DNA of 64,000 nucleotides from Polynucleobacter sp. IMCC 30228 (GTDB lineage Bacteria; Pseudomonadota; Gammaproteobacteria; Burkholderiales; Burkholderiaceae), in assembly GCF_021395205.1 (NCBI RefSeq), contig NZ_JAJVCS010000003.1, positions 124,001 to 188,000 of the forward strand, read 5' to 3'. How positions within the stretch are numbered: the first letter of the stretch is position 1; the number at the start of each line of letters is the position of its first letter. Positions 54,272 to 64,000 of the stretch are shown here, piece after piece. The notes beneath the pieces are model-generated. The model had not been told where the DNA came from, ran no database searches, and worked only from the letters and a program-made list of their open reading frames with translations. Made by a program: the position numbers and the translations under genes.

Positions 54272-55132
54272 ATGCTAAAAACTCTTTCAGAACAGCAGGT
54301 GAGGCAATATCAAGAACAGGGATACCTTAGTAAAATAAGGGTATTGAGTGCCGAGCAGACCCTAGAGATCCGCCAAAAACTTGAAGCTTTCGAGGCTGAA
54401 CAAGGCAAACCCTTAAATGGCTCCCAACGGCACAAAACCCATTTACTCTTTACTTGGCTTAATGAGTTAGTCCGCAATAGCAAAATTCTTGATGCAATAG
54501 AGGATTTATATGGCGAAAATATCCTGTGTTGGACGACAAATTTTTTTATTAAAGAGGCCAATGATCCCGGTTTTGTTTCATGGCATCAAGACTCGACTTA
54601 TTGGGGTCTATCTTCACCTGATGTAATAACTGCATGGATTGCTTTATCCCCAAGCAATCAAACTAATGGGGCGATGGCAATTATTCCCGGCACACACTTG
54701 CTCGATCAGTTGCCCCACCGAGATTCTTTTGCAAAAAATAATTTACTTACCCGTGGCCAAGAAATTGCAATGGCAGTAAACGAGGCCGAGGCGGTAACCT
54801 TAGAGCTAGAGCCGGGTGAAATGTCTTTACATCATGTGCGTATTATTCATGGCTCCCCGCCGAATCATTCTGCCGAGCGGCGAATTGGCTTTGCGATTCG
54901 CTATATTCCTACTTTCGTTAGACAAATTGAAGGTGATGATTCAGCTACGCTAGTGCGCGGCATGGACGAGTACCAAACCTTCACTCATGAGCCCACCCCA
55001 AGCAAGGATATGGATCTTGATTTTGTTGCTTTACACCAAAGTATTACCGATAAAAGCGCGAAGATTTTATATAAAGATACGAAGATCGATAGTTATGATG
55101 CCTCGATGGCCAACCCGAAGGAGCGGGCCTGA
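54272..55132 (+). CDS. Phytanoyl-CoA dioxygenase-family protein
   Basis: A 286-residue Fe(II)/2-oxoglutarate oxygenase. The metal triad is visible as His105 and Asp107 (SWHQDSTYWG) and His193 (RIIHGSPPN), with the 2-oxoglutarate-binding arginine in the following AERRIGFAIRYIPT. WIALSPSNQTNGAMAIIPGTH is typical of the family. The substrate is unknown. It converges on the thiol dioxygenase gene. Confidence 0.88.
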   Translation: MLKTLSEQQVRQYQEQGYLSKIRVLSAEQTLEIRQKLEAFEAEQGKPLNGSQRHKTHLLFTWLNELVRNSKILDAIEDLYGENILCWTTNFFIKEANDPGFVSWHQDSTYWGLSSPDVITAWIALSPSNQTNGAMAIIPGTHLLDQLPHRDSFAKNNLLTRGQEIAMAVNEAEAVTLELEPGEMSLHHVRIIHGSPPNHSAERRIGFAIRYIPTFVRQIEGDDSATLVRGMDEYQTFTHEPTPSKDMDLDFVALHQSITDKSAKILYKDTKIDSYDASMANPKERA

Positions 55133-55203: not shown

Positions 55204-55815
55204 TTAAATTTTAGGATTGGCGGAGCGATCCCATAAGTTAGGCACTTGAGCCGAAGAATAGCCGGAAACAAATTGTTTCTTTGCTCCGGTTTCATGATGA
55301 TAGGTATGGCGATTGACTGCGCCAATATTAGCCCCATAGACATGAATGCTAATAGCGTTTTGGGTGGAGGAGGCATTGCGCACAATATGAATATCGCCAA
55401 TATCTGGACTAACCGCTTCAACTTCTCCTGGATTAAGGATGACTTCAGGACCATCTTGCACTAATTTGCCAGCTTGATCGTGCTTAAAACGCTGACTAAT
55501 TTCAGAGCCGCGAAGCATACCAATTAGGCCCCATACACAGTGATCATGAATTGGTGTCTTATGGTCTGGCCCCCAAACAAAGCTAACCACGGAGAAGCGC
55601 TCTAAGGGATCGGTATGTAACAAAAATTGTTGATAGTATTCATGATGATGAATGGTGCAAAAGGTCGGCAGCCAAGTGTCATTTGCAATAAGTTGTTTTA
55701 GTAAGGCCCCACCTTTATTAACTAGGGTAGGCTCATCCTGGGTTTCATTGACTAAATGAGTCATTGCAATGACAAACTCGCGCAGTGGGCTAATCGGATG
55801 GGTGGTTGCTGACAT
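55204..55815 (-). CDS. Thiol dioxygenase (cysteine/3-mercaptopropionate dioxygenase family)
   Basis: A 203-residue cupin enzyme that adds O2 to a thiol, giving a sulfinate. Iron ligands are His90 and His92 (TPIHDHCVWG) and His143 (GDIHIV), and the Ser156-His158-Tyr160 triad of the family is present (SIHVYG). The local RFSVVSFVWGP segment is of the bacterial type that includes both cysteine and 3-mercaptopropionate dioxygenases; substrate cannot be decided. It is divergent from the hydroxylase gene, with a 143-base gap between starts. Confidence 0.88.
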   Translation of the reverse strand: MSATTHPISPLREFVIAMTHLVNETQDEPTLVNKGGALLKQLIANDTWLPTFCTIHHHEYYQQFLLHTDPLERFSVVSFVWGPDHKTPIHDHCVWGLIGMLRGSEISQRFKHDQAGKLVQDGPEVILNPGEVEAVSPDIGDIHIVRNASSTQNAISIHVYGANIGAVNRHTYHHETGAKKQFVSGYSSAQVPNLWDRSANPKI

Positions 55816-55958: not shown

Positions 55959-56798
55959 ATGAGCTCAGCAGCAAAACCCATGTTCATGAATGAGCGCCAA
56001 CGGAAGTTTCGCGCGGCTTATATTGGCGCTATTAGCCCGTTTTATAACGGCATCGTGCATATTGGCGTGATGTATTTAGCAGGTTTAGTGGCAATTTATT
56101 ATTGCGCCTCTCAATTAGTTAACCCTGGCTGGGCTTGGTTAACGGTAATTCCAGTTGCCATTGCAGGTAACTTTGTGGAGTGGGGTATGCATTTTTTTGT
56201 CATGCACCGTTTAATTGATAAGTTTGCCTTACGCGCCATTTATGATCGTCACACCCGCCAGCATCACCAGTACTTTACTGATAACGATTACACCATCGAT
56301 ACCGCACAAGAGTTTCGCATTGTATTTTTCCCTTGGCGAGTCTTAATTGTCTTGGGTGTTTTCGGCACTCTTTTCGGCTATATTGCAGCGCAGATTTTTA
56401 ATCCTAATGTGGGATATATTTTATATATCACCATGGTTGGCCATTATTTGCTTTACGAAACCTTTCATTTTTGCTGCCATGTAAAAGACAATTGGTTTGT
56501 ACGTAATATGCCATGCGTAAATACCATCCGTCGCCACCATGCCGCTCATCATAATTTAGGCATTATGATGCATAAAAATATGAACCTCACTTTTCCTGTA
56601 GCAGATTGGTTTTTAGGCACGTCTGATATTAAAAGAAGTCTTCTGGGCACTCTCTTTAATGGTTTTGATGAAACATATCTCGACCCTAAACTAAAACCGA
56701 TTATTAACAAGTTTCAAGACAGCCAAGTACAGGAGGAAAAAGTGACGCTTGAAGGGCCGATTCTATCCCCTGCTGAGCAGCAAATTTTGCGCGCATAA
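55959..56798 (+). CDS. Fatty acid hydroxylase/sterol desaturase-family protein
   Basis: A 279-residue membrane di-iron protein (PF04116 type) with about four hydrophobic segments and the histidine clusters HFFVMH (His78, His83), HTRQHH (98, 102, 103), HYLLYETFHFCCH (162, 170, 174) and HHAAHH (193-198). AGGAGGG precedes the ATG. The substrate is unknown. It is followed after 4 bases by the monooxygenase-like gene and heads a + strand run of genes to the end of the window. Confidence 0.87.
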   Translation: MSSAAKPMFMNERQRKFRAAYIGAISPFYNGIVHIGVMYLAGLVAIYYCASQLVNPGWAWLTVIPVAIAGNFVEWGMHFFVMHRLIDKFALRAIYDRHTRQHHQYFTDNDYTIDTAQEFRIVFFPWRVLIVLGVFGTLFGYIAAQIFNPNVGYILYITMVGHYLLYETFHFCCHVKDNWFVRNMPCVNTIRRHHAAHHNLGIMMHKNMNLTFPVADWFLGTSDIKRSLLGTLFNGFDETYLDPKLKPIINKFQDSQVQEEKVTLEGPILSPAEQQILRA

Positions 56799-56802
56799 CC
56801 AG

Positions 56803-57372
56803 ATGGTACAGGCCGTTTTTTTCGACGTCTTACCTAAAGAGGGTTCTGTTGAAACCTACTTTAGTATGGCCGCTAGCTTACGCCCAATCGTTGAAAAAAA
56901 TCCCGGCTTCGTGGCGGTAGAGCGTTTTGAAAATTTACAGGAATCGGGTTGGTTTTTTTCATTTTCGCAATGGCGTGATGAATTGGCTCTGGCGCAGTGG
57001 CGGTGCCAGCCAGACCACTATGGAGCTCAGGTTTGTGGGCGTAGCCTCATACTTGCAGACTATCGTTTAAGAGTGGCCGCACAGCAAGTTGGCGCACCTA
57101 TACAAAGCGAGATAAAAGAACGTGAACAGGTAGCGATGTTGATTGGGAATTTTGCGGCAATTGAGCACGCGTTTAAAGCGAGGCTAGACGCCGGCAATGA
57201 TTTACAACTGTTCCGAGGGGTTATCGATGCACAGCGCGGTATCGGGCTGGTTAACCACATTTCAGGACCCGTTGAATTTGCTGCCTCTACTCAATATGAA
57301 CTCAGATATTTTGAGGTTTGTCGTGACTATGGTATGTTTGATCGTGCCCAAGCCCCGCAACAATTTGCCTAA
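56803..57372 (+). CDS. Antibiotic-biosynthesis-monooxygenase-like protein
   Basis: A protein of about 189 residues. The first 95 residues resemble a dimeric alpha-beta-barrel monooxygenase (VVxxFFDVLPKEGSVETYFSMAASLRPIVEKNPGFV ... SFSQWRDELALAQW, with gaps), while the second half is a divergent repeat-like extension ending DRAQAPQQFA. ATG at 56803 is directly behind the hydroxylase stop. Members of the family act on aromatic or quinone-like compounds without cofactor; others degrade haem. Confidence 0.78.
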   Translation: MVQAVFFDVLPKEGSVETYFSMAASLRPIVEKNPGFVAVERFENLQESGWFFSFSQWRDELALAQWRCQPDHYGAQVCGRSLILADYRLRVAAQQVGAPIQSEIKEREQVAMLIGNFAAIEHAFKARLDAGNDLQLFRGVIDAQRGIGLVNHISGPVEFAASTQYELRYFEVCRDYGMFDRAQAPQQFA

Positions 57373-57389
57373 AAAATAATTCAAATGCT

Positions 57390-58073
57390 ATGGATACTTT
57401 GGTCAAAATAAAATCAGTAGCTGCAAAGGAAGATTTATCGCTTTCTGATCAAGCTTATCGGCGTCTGGAAGAGATGATTGCCACTATGGCGCTTGCTCCC
57501 GGTGCCCCCATTTCTGAAAGTCAGTTATCTACTTTATTGGGAATTGGCAGAACACCCATTCGCGAAGCACTGCAAAGATTAAGTCGTGAACATCTGGTCA
57601 CCATCTTACCGAAACGCGGTATTTTTATTTCTGACCTAAACCCGCAGAAGCAATTGCGCGTACTAGAAACCAGGCGTGAATTAGAAAGACTGATTTGCAA
57701 GAAGGCTGCTAAACGCTCGACCAATGATGAGCGTACTGAATTTATTAGGCTGGCAAAAGATTTTCGGAGATCTGCAAAAGAAAAAAATAATACCTTATTT
57801 CTAAAAATTGATAAAGAATTAAACGACTTAACAATTAAGGCGGCTAAAAATGAATATGCGGCAGCAGCTATGACTACTTTGCACGGCATGTCGCGACGAT
57901 TTTGGTTTGGTAATTTTCATCAGGAGGTGAGTATTTCTAGTATTGCTGCTTTGCACGCTACGCTAGCAGATGAGATTGCTGCCGGGCAAGAAGAGGCTGC
58001 CGGCCAAGCATTAGATAAGTTGCTTGACTACATTGAAGATTTCACCCGTAGAACAGTATTACCCGATCATTAA
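57390..58073 (+). CDS. GntR-family (FCD) transcriptional regulator
   Basis: A 227-residue regulator: winged helix at about residues 25-80 with recognition segment LSTLLGIGRTPIREALQRLSREHLV, followed by an all-helical FCD ligand domain. FCD proteins usually respond to a small carboxylate that is the substrate of the neighbouring pathway. It lies between the hydroxylase/monooxygenase pair and the ABC importer and probably controls both. Confidence 0.9.
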   Translation: MDTLVKIKSVAAKEDLSLSDQAYRRLEEMIATMALAPGAPISESQLSTLLGIGRTPIREALQRLSREHLVTILPKRGIFISDLNPQKQLRVLETRRELERLICKKAAKRSTNDERTEFIRLAKDFRRSAKEKNNTLFLKIDKELNDLTIKAAKNEYAAAAMTTLHGMSRRFWFGNFHQEVSISSIAALHATLADEIAAGQEEAAGQALDKLLDYIEDFTRRTVLPDH

Positions 58074-58130: not shown

Positions 58131-59426
58131 ATGAAAAAGAAATTAGTTCAAAATGAAAGCCGCCGGTCTGTCATTAAAGGTATTGGCGCCACTTCTTTGC
58201 TTGCTGCAGGGGGGTGGGGTTTTCCTGCAATTGCTCAAAATACTCCAATTAAAGTTGGTATTTTGGCGCCACGCGCTGGTATAGCTGGCACTATTGGCGA
58301 ATGCGGCTTACGGGGCGCAATGTTTGCAGTAGATAAGATTAATAAAAGTGGTGGTATTGGCGGCCGCAAAGTTGAACTCATTGTCGAAGAAGAAACAAAT
58401 GCCAAAGATACTACCGAACGTTTTCGCAAATTAGTTTTACAAGATAAAGTAGATTGCGTACAAGGGATTGTTTCGTCTGGCGTTTCATTGGCGATGAGCC
58501 CTACAGTTGAAGAAATGAAAGCCTTAACCATCTATTGGGATGGCACATCCCAAGATGGCGTGAAAGAAACTATTCCGACACCAAAATATTTATTCCGCTC
58601 TACGGATAATGAGTGCGAGGCGGTAATGGCTTCATTACTGGCGATTAAATATTACAAAGGTAAATTTGCCACCATTGCAGGGATTAATCCCGACTATTCT
58701 TATGGCCGAAACAATTGGGCTGCCTTTCAGGCACTTTTAAAGCGCTTTGGCATTCCCCATAAGGTTGTGGCAGAGCAGTGGCCAAAGGTGGGCACGATGG
58801 ACCTTTCTAGTAATATCGCTGCCTTAAAAGCTGCTAAGCCCGATTTAATTTTCTCTTCTTTATTATTTGCTGACTTACCAGTATTTATGCAAAATGCGCA
58901 TGCTGCAGGTTTGGCCAATGGGGATATTAAATATGTGATGCCTGCTGCTGGCTTTCAGCAAACCTTGATGAAAAAAGAATTTACTCCCGAGGGCATAGTC
59001 TTTGGTTTAAATACGTTAGACTTTAACTATCCCAATGCTAGCCCCCTGCAGAAAGAGTTTGTGCAGTTTTATTACAGCAAATATAAAGATTATCCAAATT
59101 GGGAAGCTGATCGTGCGTATTTTGCCATGCAGATATATAAAGCAGGCACTGAAAAGGCGATTAAAACAAAGGGTGGGGCATGGCCTAAGACTGAAGAAAT
59201 TATCGCTGGTATTGAAGGAATCGAGGTTCAGTCATTAGGCGGTCCTGGCAGAATGCGGGGCGACCATATTGCTGAACAAACTTTCTATCAAGGCTTAACT
59301 ACACATAAAAATAAGTATGATTTTGTAACCACAAATCCTGTGGATAAGAAATTCAGCAGCGAATTACAAAAGCCGCCAGGCATGGATTTTTGGCAATGGC
59401 TTGAAACTGCAAAAATTACTCTTTAG
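58131..59426 (+). CDS. ABC transporter substrate-binding protein, branched-chain type, Tat signal
   Basis: A 431-residue type-1 periplasmic binding protein of the branched-chain amino acid (LivK/HAAT) class. The N terminus carries a twin-arginine signal (SRRSVIKGIGA, Arg11-Arg12) ending in PAIAQ, unlike the Sec signal of typical LivK. IKVGILAPRAGIAGTIGECGLRGAMFAVDKIN is the fold entry. A Rho-independent terminator follows, so it may be made in excess over the permeases. Confidence 0.9.
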   Translation: MKKKLVQNESRRSVIKGIGATSLLAAGGWGFPAIAQNTPIKVGILAPRAGIAGTIGECGLRGAMFAVDKINKSGGIGGRKVELIVEEETNAKDTTERFRKLVLQDKVDCVQGIVSSGVSLAMSPTVEEMKALTIYWDGTSQDGVKETIPTPKYLFRSTDNECEAVMASLLAIKYYKGKFATIAGINPDYSYGRNNWAAFQALLKRFGIPHKVVAEQWPKVGTMDLSSNIAALKAAKPDLIFSSLLFADLPVFMQNAHAAGLANGDIKYVMPAAGFQQTLMKKEFTPEGIVFGLNTLDFNYPNASPLQKEFVQFYYSKYKDYPNWEADRAYFAMQIYKAGTEKAIKTKGGAWPKTEEIIAGIEGIEVQSLGGPGRMRGDHIAEQTFYQGLTTHKNKYDFVTTNPVDKKFSSELQKPPGMDFWQWLETAKITL

Positions 59427-59481: not shown

Positions 59482-60363
59482 ATGACAGCATTTATCGATA
59501 TCGTATTAAGTGGCATTTTTCATGCTGCAGTACTATTTTTATTAGCTGGTGGTTTGCAGTTGGTTTTTGGCGTACAAAAAATTGTGAACTTATCTTGTGG
59601 CGCTTTTTATGCACTAGGCGCCTATTTTGGCATTACTTTTGTTAACCTAGCAATCCAGCAGGGCATTTCATCATCTTATTTGCTGGCACTTATTTTATTG
59701 GCCGGCATGATCATCGGCCTGGTTGGGCCTTTAATAGAGCGACTATTGCGCTTAGTTTATCAGCGTGAGGAAGGCTTTCAATTGCTGCTTACCTTTGCCA
59801 TTATGTTGGTCTTGGAAGACTTAATTCGGATGCTTTGGGGCGCTACTCCTATGACCTTGGGCAATATTTCGATGGTATATGGCAAATTAAATTTTGCTTC
59901 GACTACCTTACCCGTTTATAAGGCTCTCGTAATTGGTTCAAGCATCTGCTTAGCTTTAGCACTTGGTTGGATGCTGCAAAGAACTAATTTTGGGCGTATT
60001 GTGCGAGCAACTGCAGAAAATCGCCGCATGAGTGAAGCCCTTGGGGTCAACGGCGTCTGGATTAATGTCGCTATCTTTACCCTGGGTACCATGTTGGGCA
60101 CCCTTGGTGGCGCCTTAGTGGTGCCGACTTCCGCAGCTTCGCTCGATATGATCTCCGAAGTTGTTGTCGAAGCCTTTGCAGTAGTAGTCATTGGTGGGCT
60201 AGGCAGCATGCGGGGCGCTTTGGTAGGCGCTTTAATTGTTGGTTTAATGCGCGCGTTTGCGGTATATGCCTACGCAGAGCTTGAGCTACTCCTCATTTAT
60301 TTAATAGTTATTTTAGTTTTAATTATTAAGCCTTCTGGTCTTTATGGAAAGGCAGCTGAATGA
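59482..60363 (+). CDS. Branched-chain-type ABC permease (LivH-like)
   Basis: A 293-residue permease with about eight membrane segments and the LivH-type motif FGRIVRATAENRRMSEALGVN and the later VVIGGLGSMRGALVGALIVG. It overlaps the next permease gene by four bases (ATGA). Substrate is unknown and set by the binding protein. Confidence 0.92.
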   Translation: MTAFIDIVLSGIFHAAVLFLLAGGLQLVFGVQKIVNLSCGAFYALGAYFGITFVNLAIQQGISSSYLLALILLAGMIIGLVGPLIERLLRLVYQREEGFQLLLTFAIMLVLEDLIRMLWGATPMTLGNISMVYGKLNFASTTLPVYKALVIGSSICLALALGWMLQRTNFGRIVRATAENRRMSEALGVNGVWINVAIFTLGTMLGTLGGALVVPTSAASLDMISEVVVEAFAVVVIGGLGSMRGALVGALIVGLMRAFAVYAYAELELLLIYLIVILVLIIKPSGLYGKAAE

Positions 60364-61328
60364 CGCTTAAGTTTAAGTTGGTGATCTTAATTTGTTTGGC
60401 CGTGCTTTGTAGCTCGCCTTGGATTTTAAGCCCTTATTACATGACCTTGTTATTGCCAGCAGTGGCATACAGTATTATTTTGTTGGGCTTCAATTTACTC
60501 TTTGGTTATACCGGCCTTTTATCTTTTGGTCATGCAATGTATGTTGCTTTAGGAGCTTATACAGTTGCCATCTTGACGAGCCGCCTTGGCATTAAAAGCA
60601 TGGAAGTCAATATTCTTGGGGCGGCGCTTGTTTGTTTTCTTATTTCGATTCCCATTGGGCTACTTTGTGTGCGCTATGTACGAATTTTTTTCGGCATGCT
60701 GACCTTAGCTTTTGGCATGTTATTCCATTCCATTCTCTTTAAGTTCTATGATTTATCGGGTGGGGATTCTGGCATTAAAGTTATTCGCCCCAACTTATTT
60801 GGCGTTGACTTAAGTGAAATGGATAAAACTAGTTTTTTAATTGGCCCATTTTTTTACTATTCAATTGGGGTCATGCTTATCCTCGCATTGGTGATGTGGC
60901 GGATTGTGCATTCGCCACTCGGCCTGCATTTGCAGTCCATACGTGATAACCCCCGTAAGGCCGAATATTTAGGCATAAAGGTACATCGTTTTCGTTTAAT
61001 TTCCTTTGTTATTTCGGCGGTGTATGGCGGAATCGGCGGCGCCTTATTAGTCGTGCCCGTAGGCTTAGCCGATCCTGAGTTGGCTTATTGGACTCAATCG
61101 GGCAATATTGTTTTTATGACTATCTTCGGGGGCTTTAATAATTTCTTTGGCCCGATCATTGGTGCATTTGCGTTTATTGGGCTAAAAGATCAAATTGTCA
61201 GCCAAACTCAATATTGGCGGTTGGTATTGGGAATCGTGTTAATTCTGCTAGTGGTTTTTTTACCTGGCGGAATCATGGGCTTATTGACTGGCAAGAAGTC
61301 TGTGGCTCGTTCGCAGGAGGGGCGCTGA
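60360..61328 (+). CDS. Branched-chain-type ABC permease (LivM-like)
   Basis: A 322-residue permease with about nine membrane segments, including LLFGYTGLLSFGHAMYVALGAYT and the loop LQSIRDNPRKAEYLGIKVHRFRL typical of LivM. The stop TGA shares its last base with the start of the first ATPase gene. Confidence 0.92.
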   Translation: MTLKFKLVILICLAVLCSSPWILSPYYMTLLLPAVAYSIILLGFNLLFGYTGLLSFGHAMYVALGAYTVAILTSRLGIKSMEVNILGAALVCFLISIPIGLLCVRYVRIFFGMLTLAFGMLFHSILFKFYDLSGGDSGIKVIRPNLFGVDLSEMDKTSFLIGPFFYYSIGVMLILALVMWRIVHSPLGLHLQSIRDNPRKAEYLGIKVHRFRLISFVISAVYGGIGGALLVVPVGLADPELAYWTQSGNIVFMTIFGGFNNFFGPIIGAFAFIGLKDQIVSQTQYWRLVLGIVLILLVVFLPGGIMGLLTGKKSVARSQEGR

Positions 61329-62089
61329 TGCCGATTTTAGAATCAAAGGCGGTTTCAAAACATTATGGAGTTTATAAGGCACTGCAAGACGTTAGCCTGC
61401 AATTTTTTGAAAACGAAATTGTCGCGATTGTGGGCCCGAATGGGGCAGGAAAAACTACCTTTGTTAATGTGCTTACTGGTTTATTAAAGCCAACTCATGG
61501 TGAAGTTGCCTTTCATGGCAAATCGATTGCTGGAGTTGGTCCCGTCACCTTAGCGAAATTAGGCATGGCGCGTGCTTTTCAGCTAGTACAAATATTCCCG
61601 CAATTAAGTGTGCAAGAAACTATTATTGCTGCCGTTATTTCTCAACGTAATATGCAATACAACTTTTGGTCAAACGTTGGCTCCAAGTCGGAGTTAATTG
61701 AGCGCGCGCTTGAGGTGGCAGCTATTTTTAACTTAGACAAAAAAATGGCTTGGCAAGCTTCCTATTTGTCTCAAGGTGAGAAAAAGCTCCTAGATATTGC
61801 CAGCGCATTTGCTTTAAGCCCAGAGGTGATTTTATTAGATGAGCCAACGAGTGGTATTTCTACAGGCGAGAAGCGCGGCATTATGGATACCTTGATGGCT
61901 GCAGCGAAATTAGCTGGCATAAAAACGATGCTGTTGGTTGAGCATGATATGGAATTAGTTGCCGAGTATTCAACGCGAATCGTTGCTTTGGCAGAAGGCA
62001 AATTATTAGCTGATTTACCCCCCAACGAGTTTTTTAATGATCCTGAACTGCAGGCAACTATTATTGGTAAACGGGTGAATCATGCTTAA
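61328..62089 (+). CDS. Branched-chain-type ABC ATPase (LivG-like)
   Basis: A 253-residue ATPase with Walker A GPNGAGKTT, the degenerate signature LSQGEKKLLDIASAF and Walker B VILLDEPTSGIS. Start at 61328 is chosen because it overlaps the livM stop and gives a normal N terminus; a reading from 61214 runs into livM. It overlaps the second ATPase gene by 8 bases. Confidence 0.92.
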   Translation: MPILESKAVSKHYGVYKALQDVSLQFFENEIVAIVGPNGAGKTTFVNVLTGLLKPTHGEVAFHGKSIAGVGPVTLAKLGMARAFQLVQIFPQLSVQETIIAAVISQRNMQYNFWSNVGSKSELIERALEVAAIFNLDKKMAWQASYLSQGEKKLLDIASAFALSPEVILLDEPTSGISTGEKRGIMDTLMAAAKLAGIKTMLLVEHDMELVAEYSTRIVALAEGKLLADLPPNEFFNDPELQATIIGKRVNHA

Positions 62090-62783
62090 GGTGAAGGCGA
62101 TTTCGGTTGAAATTCAAAATAGCCCCATTCTGCGTAAAGTTAGCCTTGAAGTTAAGGCCGGTGAATTGGTATGTTTGGTTGGTAGAAATGGCGCAGGCAA
62201 AACTACTACCCTAAATAGCATCATGGGTTATCGCAAACCAAAAGAGGGCGATATTCTGCTTGAGGAAAAATCGATTCTAGGAAAACGGACGTTTGATATT
62301 GCCCGATTAGGGATTGGATTTTCTCCAGAAGAAAGTGAAGTTTTTGGTGATCTAACTGTGGCTGAAAATATTGAAATGTCAACCTGGACAATTAAAACTA
62401 AAATGCCCAATGCTGAACGCATTGCGATGGCCTATCGTATTTTTCCTAAGCTAGACGGGTATCGCGAACGTGGTGGCAATCATTTATCGGGTGGTGAGCG
62501 GAAGATGCTTTCAATTGCTCGAGCGCTGACGCTTGATCCGAAGTTATTAATTCTGGACGAACCTTTCGAGGGGCTTTCGCCTGCGATTATTCCGATTATT
62601 AGTGACGGCCTATCGAGCATTCGTGAGGCAGGCCGAGCAATTTTAATGGCCGAGTCCAATGCTTTTCATATTCCCGACTATGCCGACCGTGTTTACGTGA
62701 TTGAGCGTGGCGAAATTATTTTTTCTGGCAGCGTGAATGATGCTAAACGGCATACTAATTTAAGTCTTAAGGGCGAAGCATAG
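62082..62783 (+). CDS. Branched-chain-type ABC ATPase (LivF-like)
   Basis: A 233-residue ATPase with Walker A GRNGAGKTT, signature LSGGERKMLSIARAL and Walker B LLILDEPFEGLSP, as in LivF. It completes an importer of one binding protein, two permeases and two ATPases. The gap to the next gene is 20 bases. Confidence 0.92.
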   Translation: MLKVKAISVEIQNSPILRKVSLEVKAGELVCLVGRNGAGKTTTLNSIMGYRKPKEGDILLEEKSILGKRTFDIARLGIGFSPEESEVFGDLTVAENIEMSTWTIKTKMPNAERIAMAYRIFPKLDGYRERGGNHLSGGERKMLSIARALTLDPKLLILDEPFEGLSPAIIPIISDGLSSIREAGRAILMAESNAFHIPDYADRVYVIERGEIIFSGSVNDAKRHTNLSLKGEA

Positions 62784-62803: not shown

Positions 62804-63685
62804 TTGAACAAAGCAACGGCAGTGCCTGAGCAAAAAAAACGAACCATGCAAGATATTTATGCCTCAAAAAAAACAGGTGAGAAAATGGTTTATATGTCTG
62901 TACCCGATTACACCTCAGCAAAATGGGCAGAAACTGCGGGGGTTGATGTTGCTGTGATTGGGGATAGTTTGGCGATGATTGCGCATGGGCACTCTAATAC
63001 GATTCCAGCGTCGATGGATATGATGGTGATGCACGCTGCTGGCATTCGACGTGGCGCCCCAAATACCTTTCTGCTGGGTTGTATGCCTTATCAAAGCTAC
63101 AACACAATTGATCGGGCGCTCACCAATGCGACGCGGTTTATGCAGGAAGCAGGCTCAGATGCGGTGAAGCCTCAAGGTGGAAAATCGCAAGCACATATTT
63201 TGCGAGCTATGGTCGATGCAGGTATTCCAACCGCCTCTCATATCGGCATGACCCCCCATACCGTAGCTGTATTTGGGGGCTTTAAGGTACAGGGACGTAC
63301 AGCTGACACCGCCATGAAAATTTTAGAAGATGCCTTTGCAATTCAAGATGCCGGCTGTTTTATGCTGGAGTTTGAAGCTGTGCCAGCAAAGATTGCCAGC
63401 GTTATTTCACAGCAATTAGAAATCCCAACAATTGGAATTGGTGCTGGCGTTGGTACTGACGGTCAAATTTTGTTATGCCATGATTTATTGGGCGTATTTT
63501 CTGATTTCAAGCCGAAATTTACTAAACGTTATGCGAATTTGACTGAAGTAGCGGTTGCCGGCATTAAGGAGTACATTGCCGATGTTAAGGGAGGTACCTT
63601 TCCAGATGATGAGCATAGTTATTCTGTGGACGAAAAAGAATTTGACAAGTTTCTTAATCTAGTAGAGAAGCGAAAGCATCATTAA
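62804..63685 (+). CDS. Divergent ketopantoate hydroxymethyltransferase (PanB) homolog
   Basis: A 293-residue TIM-barrel protein of the PanB family (normal 260-270). Shared with E. coli PanB are GDSLAM with Asp54 (PanB Asp45), RRGAPN, Lys122 (Lys112), His146 (His136) and Glu191 (the base Glu181). But PanB Asp84 aligns without a gap to Cys93 (LLGCMPY for LLADLPF) and Glu114 to Gln124 (VKPQGG for VKIEGG), so two of three Mg ligands are lost. The C-terminal 35 residues are an added tail. With the ketopantoate-reductase homolog it may work on another 2-oxo or hydroxy acid, not on ketopantoate. Confidence 0.85.
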   Translation: MNKATAVPEQKKRTMQDIYASKKTGEKMVYMSVPDYTSAKWAETAGVDVAVIGDSLAMIAHGHSNTIPASMDMMVMHAAGIRRGAPNTFLLGCMPYQSYNTIDRALTNATRFMQEAGSDAVKPQGGKSQAHILRAMVDAGIPTASHIGMTPHTVAVFGGFKVQGRTADTAMKILEDAFAIQDAGCFMLEFEAVPAKIASVISQQLEIPTIGIGAGVGTDGQILLCHDLLGVFSDFKPKFTKRYANLTEVAVAGIKEYIADVKGGTFPDDEHSYSVDEKEFDKFLNLVEKRKHH

Positions 63686-63709: not shown

Positions 63710-64000
63710 ATGAGCGCTAATCGTCAGAAAATAGCGGTAGTGGGAGCAGGCGCCGTCGGCTGTTATTTTGGCGGCATGCTGGCACGCAGTAATCATGAGT
63801 TAATCCTGATTGGTCGCAGCGAGCGAGTGGATGCTATCAATCGTTTTGGTTTGCAAATGGATTGCCAAAGTTTTCAAGCTAATGTAGCTTTACAAGCAAG
63901 TGCTGATTTTGCGAGCATCGCTGCTGCAGACATGATTTTACTTTGTGTAAAGTCTTACGATACCGTTGCTACGATGCAGGCTCTAAAACCATTCTTATCT
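63710..64000 (+). CDS. Ketopantoate reductase (PanE/ApbA) family protein, N-terminal part
   Basis: The window ends inside this gene; 97 codons are visible from the ATG at 63710. The N terminus is a nucleotide-binding fold, IAVVGAGAVGCYFGGMLA, followed by DMILLCVKSYDT, both typical of 2-dehydropantoate 2-reductase family proteins. It follows the PanB homolog by 24 bases. Whether it reduces ketopantoate or another 2-oxo acid cannot be read here. Confidence 0.88.
   Translation, partial: MSANRQKIAVVGAGAVGCYFGGMLARSNHELILIGRSERVDAINRFGLQMDCQSFQANVALQASADFASIAAADMILLCVKSYDTVATMQALKPFLS

Follow-up and report, generated by a model that had tools for sequence, protein, structure and literature searches.

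A conserved clade of PanB-fold proteins with two of three magnesium ligands replaced, accompanied by a membrane hydroxylase of the sterol-desaturase family

Introduction

The closest described relative of the protein considered here, which carries Cys and Gln in place of two magnesium ligands (C/Q type), is ketopantoate hydroxymethyltransferase (PanB; EC 2.1.2.11; 1M3U). In PanB, Mg2+ chelates the 2-oxo acid substrate. The Mg ligands of the Escherichia coli enzyme are here taken to be Asp45, Asp84 and Glu114, and its general base to be Glu181. The C/Q protein shares with PanB the fold, Glu181, Lys112, His136 and Asp45, but differs in the replacement of Asp84 by Cys, Glu114 by Gln, Tyr25 by Pro and Gln142 by His, and in having Glu at position 179. 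Unlike panB, its gene shows no tie to panC, and sits with hydroxylases and importers. 2,3-Dimethylmalate lyase, 2-methylisocitrate lyase and other enzymes of the ICL/PEPM group, which are metal-dependent, have the same superfamily fold (Z 15.9-17.8) but are only 11-17% identical to the C/Q protein.

Two catabolic routes resemble the role proposed below for this protein. Methylserine hydroxymethyltransferase is a PLP enzyme of the SHMT family and is unrelated to PanB. In TRIS catabolism, this enzyme, encoded in a catabolic cluster, moves a hydroxymethyl group onto tetrahydrofolate (excerpts of PMC10848231), which is the same logic as that of the proposal. Catabolism of Aib in Rhodococcus wratislaviensis, as far as described in excerpts of PMC7782822, likewise opens with the hydroxylation of an inert methyl group by a di-iron oxygenase; unlike the proposed route, it employs a three-component oxygenase and ends in decarboxylation of a malonate-type intermediate. 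No paper on a C/Q variant of PanB was found in the open-access literature searched, among the matches listed.

A PanB homolog with an altered metal site

The C/Q-type gene lies at positions 62804-63685 (+) of the window, that is, the whole 64,000-nucleotide stretch of DNA analysed, and its open reading frame encodes 293 amino acids from a TTG start, with an AAGGAG stretch upstream in the DNA. Judged by profile matches, the protein is beyond doubt a member of PF02548 (310 bits; cut-off 28.7), and it also exceeds the cut-offs of TIGR00222 (282 bits; cut-off 207.55) and NF001452 (301.6 bits; cut-off 272). A phmmer search of PDB chains at E up to 0.001 gave five matches, all of them PanB, and the identity to E. 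coli PanB (1m3u) is 37%. In the HMMER alignment to 1m3u, LLADLPF of E. coli stands opposite LLGCMPY, placing Cys93 at Asp84, and VKIEGG opposite VKPQGG, placing Gln124 at Glu114, both without gaps. Asp54, Lys122, His146 and Glu191 correspond to Asp45, Lys112, His136 and Glu181. The replacements and retentions claimed for this protein in a preliminary description were thus borne out, and the window protein keeps the general base, Lys and His of PanB together with only one of its three Mg ligands.

The change at the metal site is accompanied by others. Val179 of E. coli PanB, near the general base, is replaced by Glu189, a change absent from the preliminary description and fixed in the C/Q clade and in a group of paralogs that share Gln124 (Q paralogs). 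Further differences from canonical PanB that are near-fixed in C/Q proteins are Thr23 to Ser32, Tyr25 to Pro34 (93%), Leu42 to Val51 and Gln142 to His152; Glu189 and His152 are fixed also in all nine Q paralogs. These counts come from a residue table of 91 C/Q, nine Q-paralog, five third-type and 53 canonical rows, in which some rows are duplicates of one gene and from which two far relatives (L172 and L174; L and G numbers are handles for loci and genomes) were left out.

A predicted model of the window protein (pLDDT 84, pTM 0.85) has the PanB barrel fold. It matched PanB structures at Z 26.6-33.9 (33.9 to 3vav and 33.1 to 1m3u), whereas the best ICL/PEPM match other than PanB reached Z 17.8, so that the model is not closer to the ICL/PEPM lyases than to PanB. 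A second inspection of the fold matches gave no family better than PanB, the absence of other families there being uninformative. The model is weak at residues ~51-70 and 151-160 (mean pLDDT 52-69), where Asp54 and His152 fall. Glu189 lies in the model strand 188-191, two residues before Glu191, and from this strand geometry the two side chains should point the same way, into the barrel. Two acids are lost from the metal site and one is gained close to the general base, a pattern that speaks against binding of the substrate as a 2-oxo-acid/Mg chelate; a metal could nevertheless be held through Asp54 and Glu189.

Conservation and phylogeny

A scan of named genomes with three seed proteins yielded 355 stretches that encode some relative (E up to 1e-3); the best 80 of these 355, which cover the near part of the clade, were examined. 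Together with a plasmid copy from M. nodulans, the copy of genome G165 and the window gene, they make up the 83 loci considered here, whose titles place them in the Alpha-, Beta- and Gammaproteobacteria; the nearest relatives include several titled Polynucleobacter or uncultured betaproteobacteria. Each of the best 80 of the 355 relatives was at least 78% identical. All 83 examined loci carry D54, C93, K122, Q124, H146 and E191, and hence one of three Mg ligands. Distinct non-Q PanB genes in other loci read D-D-K-E-H-E without exception (73/73, one third-type gene among them). Six of the 83 loci carry a second paralog, 47-54% identical, with Ala or Ser at position 93 and Gln at 124, and in one of these six position 146 is Tyr; three further Q paralogs from whole-genome stretches bring their number to nine.

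In a maximum-likelihood tree, the C/Q proteins (42 rows) and the Q paralogs (nine rows) were each supported at SH-aLRT 99, as was the branch that sets these Q-type proteins together opposite the metal-type PanBs; an earlier tree that included the two far relatives gave 100 and 93 for the two groups. Third-type PanBs (five rows) fell on one side of a branch in these trees. The input comprised 42 distinct C/Q rows from the 83 loci and slightly more than half of the canonical rows, and the trees were quick searches that returned long-branch warnings and included the diagnostic columns. The dN/dS ratio between the window gene and four near relatives was 0.018-0.024, three of the seven comparisons being saturated at synonymous sites. 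Decay or sequencing error is ruled out by the 83 conserved loci and an omega of about 0.02. Purifying selection and the fixed residues thus agree with the earlier suggestion of a changed enzyme rather than a decaying one, and the trees with the expectation that the Cys/Gln version forms a separate clade. On the strength of sequence comparison and the predicted fold, the C/Q PanBs are a real, conserved and functionally diverged clade of the PanB fold family, without the metal site and the pathway link that define ketopantoate hydroxymethyltransferase.

Compared between the window's own genome and eight genomes of Alphaproteobacteria (8 of 13 pairs), canonical PanBs share 44-51% identity and C/Q proteins 78-82%, a level explained by strong constraint on the latter or else by gene transfer. 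Within 150 genomes of the family the C/Q gene is accessory, the window gene being the one strong match and all others listed at most 43% identical. In a phylum sample of 398 genomes, 2 carry the C/Q gene, the nine other matches at E up to 1e-15 being canonical by their residues.

Genomic context

Genes in the islands of the various loci were called as mechanical ORFs and picked by similarity across loci, with some antisense ORFs left among them (cluster 15). Those before the C/Q gene in the window include a PhyH-type Fe/2-oxoglutarate dioxygenase at 54272-55132 (+; profile match, cluster c21) and a cysteine-dioxygenase-type cupin at 55204-55815 (-), whose cluster occurs in 8 of the 83 loci. 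A membrane protein of the sterol-desaturase/fatty-acid-hydroxylase family with three His boxes follows at 55959-56798 (+; 27.1 bits against a Pfam cut-off of 31), then a protein that matches the ABM (antibiotic biosynthesis monooxygenase) domain at 56749-57372 (+; 28 bits, cut-off 23.1), whose cluster occurs in 6 of the 83 loci, the nearest relatives, and a GntR-FCD regulator at 57390-58073 (+; profile match), whose cluster is found in 51 of them. A Liv-type ABC importer comprises a periplasmic binding protein at 58131-59426 (+; profile match to Peripla_BP_6) and, named by eye, LivH-like and LivM-like permeases at 59482-60363 (+) and 60360-61328 (+), and LivG-like and LivF-like ATPases at 61214-62089 (+) and 62082-62783 (+). 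The first TTG of the LivG-like gene is probably upstream of its true start; the LivF-like gene, also clustered, ends 20 bases before the C/Q gene. Downstream, a PanE/ApbA-family reductase starts at 63710 (+) and exits the window at 64000 (whole gene L004:11711-12655, 314 aa).

Neighbours were counted within 10 kb across the 83 loci, which are very unequal in length. A sterol-desaturase-family protein was present in 56, GntR in 46, PhyH in 33, DUF6166 in 28, corrinoid or one-carbon (C1) genes in 15, a CDO-type cupin in 8 and a PanE-type gene in 7. Importers of any kind were near in 61, namely TRAP in 41, LIV in 21 and MFS in 6. Restricted to the 45 loci that extend 6 kb or more to either side, the counts were 37 for the hydroxylase, 37 for an importer, 26 for GntR and 11 for corrinoid/C1 genes, and 8 of the 45 had no hydroxylase within 10 kb. 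PhyH genes stand directly upstream of the C/Q gene in L054, L055 and L061, and directly upstream of a Q paralog in L060, L128, L166 and L167. The preliminary description had read the neighbours as those of a catabolic unit, and they do look catabolic. Its narrower expectation of co-occurrence with Liv-type importers does not hold, TRAP being commoner and the constant partner being a sterol-desaturase-family protein that it left unmentioned, and the PanE-type reductase, considered as a partner, was rejected: with a presence in only 7 of the 83 loci it is not conserved.

The importers give no common substrate. The TRAP binding protein of L048, the one compared, is nearest to 2hzk, which is taken here to be TakP (SmoM in its record), and also matches the ketoacid-binding protein 7ug8, and the MFS transporter is nearest to the aromatic-acid family but below the cut-off of that family. 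Since the TRAP, MFS and LIV matches disagree on one compound, the substrate guesses pantoate, mycosporine-like compounds, and methylated aromatic or N-methyl acids were dropped; and as the type of importer varies, a single common substrate is an assumption.

Other small genes recur near the C/Q gene. The small family DUF6166 (28/83 loci; for example L086:4119-4418, L047:14598-14888 and L048:8749-9135) is a term that occurred in no paper of the open-access literature searched. Two families of small proteins, multi-pass membrane proteins by eye, were found in 11 loci (cluster 13) and 6 loci (cluster 23), as at L102:9472-9840 and L088:8889-9275, and gave no Pfam match at E up to 0.01. Two of the metagenome-assembled contigs with catabolic islands, L060 and L072, are titled Bordetella parapertussis, a species label suspected to be wrong.

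A membrane di-iron hydroxylase as constant partner

Judged by sequence, the constant partner of the C/Q PanB is a membrane di-iron hydroxylase of the sterol-desaturase family. It was found in all 32 C/Q genomes (the own genome, G165 and 30 picked from the best 80 of the 355 loci) and in only 14 of the 398 genomes of the phylum sample (E up to 1e-15). In three Hyphomicrobiaceae genomes the hydroxylase and the C/Q gene are on different contigs, and in one of these three the hydroxylase stands in a run of GntR, hydroxylase, PhyH and TRAP genes. The three His boxes are present in all 56 members of the desaturase-family protein; a search of PDB sequences with the hydroxylase at E up to 1 gave no match.

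Twelve of the 14 hydroxylase-bearing genomes of the phylum sample are without a C/Q gene. Eight of these 12 were searched for PF02548, and they have metal-type PanBs only or, in G288, none. Seven hydroxylase regions without a C/Q PanB were read (L204-L210), and in six an alcohol dehydrogenase (ADH) or short-chain dehydrogenase (SDR) lies near: a zinc ADH of the class III/NDMA type in L204, an SDR in L205, an iron ADH in L207 and L208, and an SDR with an aldehyde dehydrogenase in L209 and L210, none being visible in L206. Among 45 C/Q loci, the same query proteins detected an ADH or SDR gene within 6 kb in 3 and within 10 kb in 5, a comparison that is biased, as the queries were taken from four of the six positive regions and no background rate from random regions stands beside it. 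It is as if the C/Q PanB replaced the enzyme that handles the alcohol, and the pattern suggests that the hydroxylase yields an alcohol, which undergoes dehydrogenation or, in the presence of a C/Q PanB, passes to that protein. Hydroxylases of this family need not yield a hydroxymethyl group. Several of the L204-L210 regions share GntR, DUF6166 or importers with the C/Q islands.

Corrinoid and folate genes

Genes for corrinoid- or folate-dependent methyl transfer occur in 15 of the 83 examined loci (best 80 of 355 plus three). They encode one or more of a fusion of a B12-binding and a URO-D-like part (its URO-D match falls short of the Pfam cut-off), a stand-alone URO-D protein, a methyl-THF:corrinoid methyltransferase (NF005719, 280 bits, cut-off 259), MetF with DUF5981 and, named by eye, a RACE-like activator; four loci also have a DUF1638 gene close by. 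The set is akin to the O-demethylase systems of acetogens. A scan that scored at most three candidates per listed genome gave the fusion protein in none of the 398 phylum genomes, versus 6 of the 32 C/Q genomes, which served as the positive control; in all six it is on the contig of the C/Q gene. Stretches of ~20 kb in L165-L167 contain one or two Q-type PanBs along with several PhyH genes, two fusion proteins and TRAP or ABC importers. The window's own locus has no corrinoid/folate C1 genes, which counts against a general linkage to folate. One fusion protein, with its B12-binding part, is encoded at L064:9634-11541 (636 aa). The fusion protein looks CmuA-like; as to a link to chloromethane (cmu) clusters, 'panB' was found in no open-access paper on chloromethane degradation, among the matches listed.

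What reaction might the C/Q protein catalyze?

The PanB-fold enzyme would have left pantothenate synthesis and now serve a catabolic route. An importer would take up a small compound, a methyl group of which would be oxidized to a hydroxymethyl group by the membrane di-iron hydroxylase, in many loci with a PhyH dioxygenase. The C/Q PanB would then remove this hydroxymethyl carbon as a C1 unit, with tetrahydrofolate as the most likely acceptor, in a PanB reaction run backwards on a different substrate. This proposal follows from PanB chemistry, in which a hydroxymethyl group is joined or split at folate. Against it count the 8 of 45 loci that have no hydroxylase within 10 kb, the 12 phylum genomes with a hydroxylase but no C/Q gene, the mixture of importer types and the restriction of corrinoid/folate genes to 15 of the 83 loci. 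The catabolic role is well supported by genomic context, the exact reaction being hypothetical. The C/Q PanB probably works downstream of the hydroxylase in catabolism. Removal of a hydroxymethyl or C1 unit with folate by this protein is more tentative, the removal, its direction and the use of folate all being inferred. The full sequence of import, methyl hydroxylation and hydroxymethyl removal, most likely onto tetrahydrofolate, is the best explanation, if one that falls a little short of being probable. A wider reading is speculative and rather unlikely: a new oxidative C1-harvesting module, in which the hydroxylase makes the hydroxymethyl group, a PanB-fold enzyme without the classical Mg site would deliver it to tetrahydrofolate, and a corrinoid system in some genomes would remove further methyl groups from the same compound.

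If it holds, this role would define an aerobic route of one-carbon recovery in freshwater, marine, soil and methylotrophic proteobacteria, no such route having been found in the open-access literature searched, among the matches listed. On the wider reading, a class of metal-independent hydroxymethyl transferases would join a superfamily whose other known members work with 2-oxo acids bound to Mg. The gene set of the proposed route is defined by the hydroxylase, PhyH, a Q-type PanB and sometimes a corrinoid methyltransferase, and its cultured carriers include Methylopila, Hansschlegelia and Hyphomicrobium.

An alternative is a C-C lyase (aldolase) of the ICL/PEPM type that works independently of folate: the protein would split the imported compound into two larger pieces and release no one-carbon unit. 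The folds nearest to the model after PanB are indeed ICL/PEPM lyases, mutases and hydrolases, and the TRAP binding protein of L048, with its matches to 2hzk and 7ug8, would suit such a reaction. This alternative is kept alive by E. coli PanB itself, which needs no folate when it works as a metal-dependent class II aldolase and accepts a variety of 2-oxo acids and aldehydes (excerpts of PMC7610986). However, class II aldolase action requires the metal whose ligands are gone here, and the corrinoid/folate genes in 15 of the 83 loci fit C1 transfer better, so that a lyase of this kind is unlikely.

A rebuilt metal site is a further alternative and a quite improbable one. Asp54 and Glu189, perhaps with His152, would hold Mg2+ or another metal, and the protein would perform a PanB-like reaction on another 2-oxo acid. 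In its favour, both Q clades have Glu189 and His152 throughout, the predicted strand should turn Glu189 and Glu191 alike toward the barrel, and the TRAP binding protein of L048 is of a 2-oxo-acid type. Against it, the residue at position 93 varies among Cys, Ala and Ser in the Q clades and is therefore no general ligand, and the model is at its weakest around Asp54 and His152.

It is far-fetched that the protein still acts as a ketopantoate hydroxymethyltransferase, as a spare PanB that has adapted to a different metal, although it scores above the TIGR00222 equivalog cut-off and retains the general base. Both acidic ligands are lost in all 83 loci, and the own genome (G000, 2.38 Mb, 16 contigs), which has three PF02548 genes, carries a canonical panB at L006:8973-9785 (-). 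This second panB, for which the preliminary description had recommended a search, adjoins a folK-like gene (named by eye), and panC is on another contig, contrary to the earlier statement that a true panB normally sits with panC; clustering of panB with folK has been described (excerpts of PMC4814558). With canonical panB and panC both present, the C/Q protein is not needed for pantothenate synthesis in this genome. A PF02548 search of 31 C/Q genomes gave the C/Q protein as the only match in four (two Stella genomes, Fodinicurvata and the genome of L065), and the C/Q protein plus a Q paralog as the only matches in the genomes of L074 and L128, one below-cut-off match in the latter being ignored; in G165 the C/Q copy is one of three matches. 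Of 19 C/Q genomes (among the 32) searched for panC, all 13 with a canonical PanB have it, and five of the six with only Q-type PanB lack it, the sixth being the L074 genome. In view of the canonical panB in the own genome and the missing panC in the Q-only genomes, ketopantoate synthesis is very unlikely, and it can be held with considerable confidence that the C/Q protein does not perform it.

A catalytically dead PanB serving as a scaffold or sensor in the island, which the lost metal ligands might suggest, is scarcely credible, since all 83 loci keep the general base, Lys122 and His146 and a new Glu has been gained beside the base.

Annotation and the third PanB paralog

The one annotated C/Q copy among those examined, in M. 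nodulans, is named panB; the other loci are from records without annotation, but their copies, at least 78% identical, would very probably receive the same name. Since the C/Q protein scores above the cut-offs of the NCBI and Pfam models of PanB, genomes that encode it may falsely appear capable of beginning pantothenate synthesis. Fodinicurvata and the two Stella genomes, which have the C/Q protein only and lack panC, are examples of such a misleading call.

The third PF02548 gene of the own genome (L005:9532-10398) encodes, like the C/Q gene, a PanB paralog, but one that is 33% identical to the C/Q protein, keeps all three acidic ligands and belongs to a separate clade. Its cluster has a folate/C1-looking character. 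On contig C9 (L005:1-12308) it lies beside genes for a formate-THF ligase (Fhs), a Rieske oxygenase and two taurine-type ABC sets (by eye), and TauE-like and GcvT-like genes, also named by eye, belong to the same cluster. From the binding protein to the GcvT-like gene, this cluster recurs around a homolog in L168.
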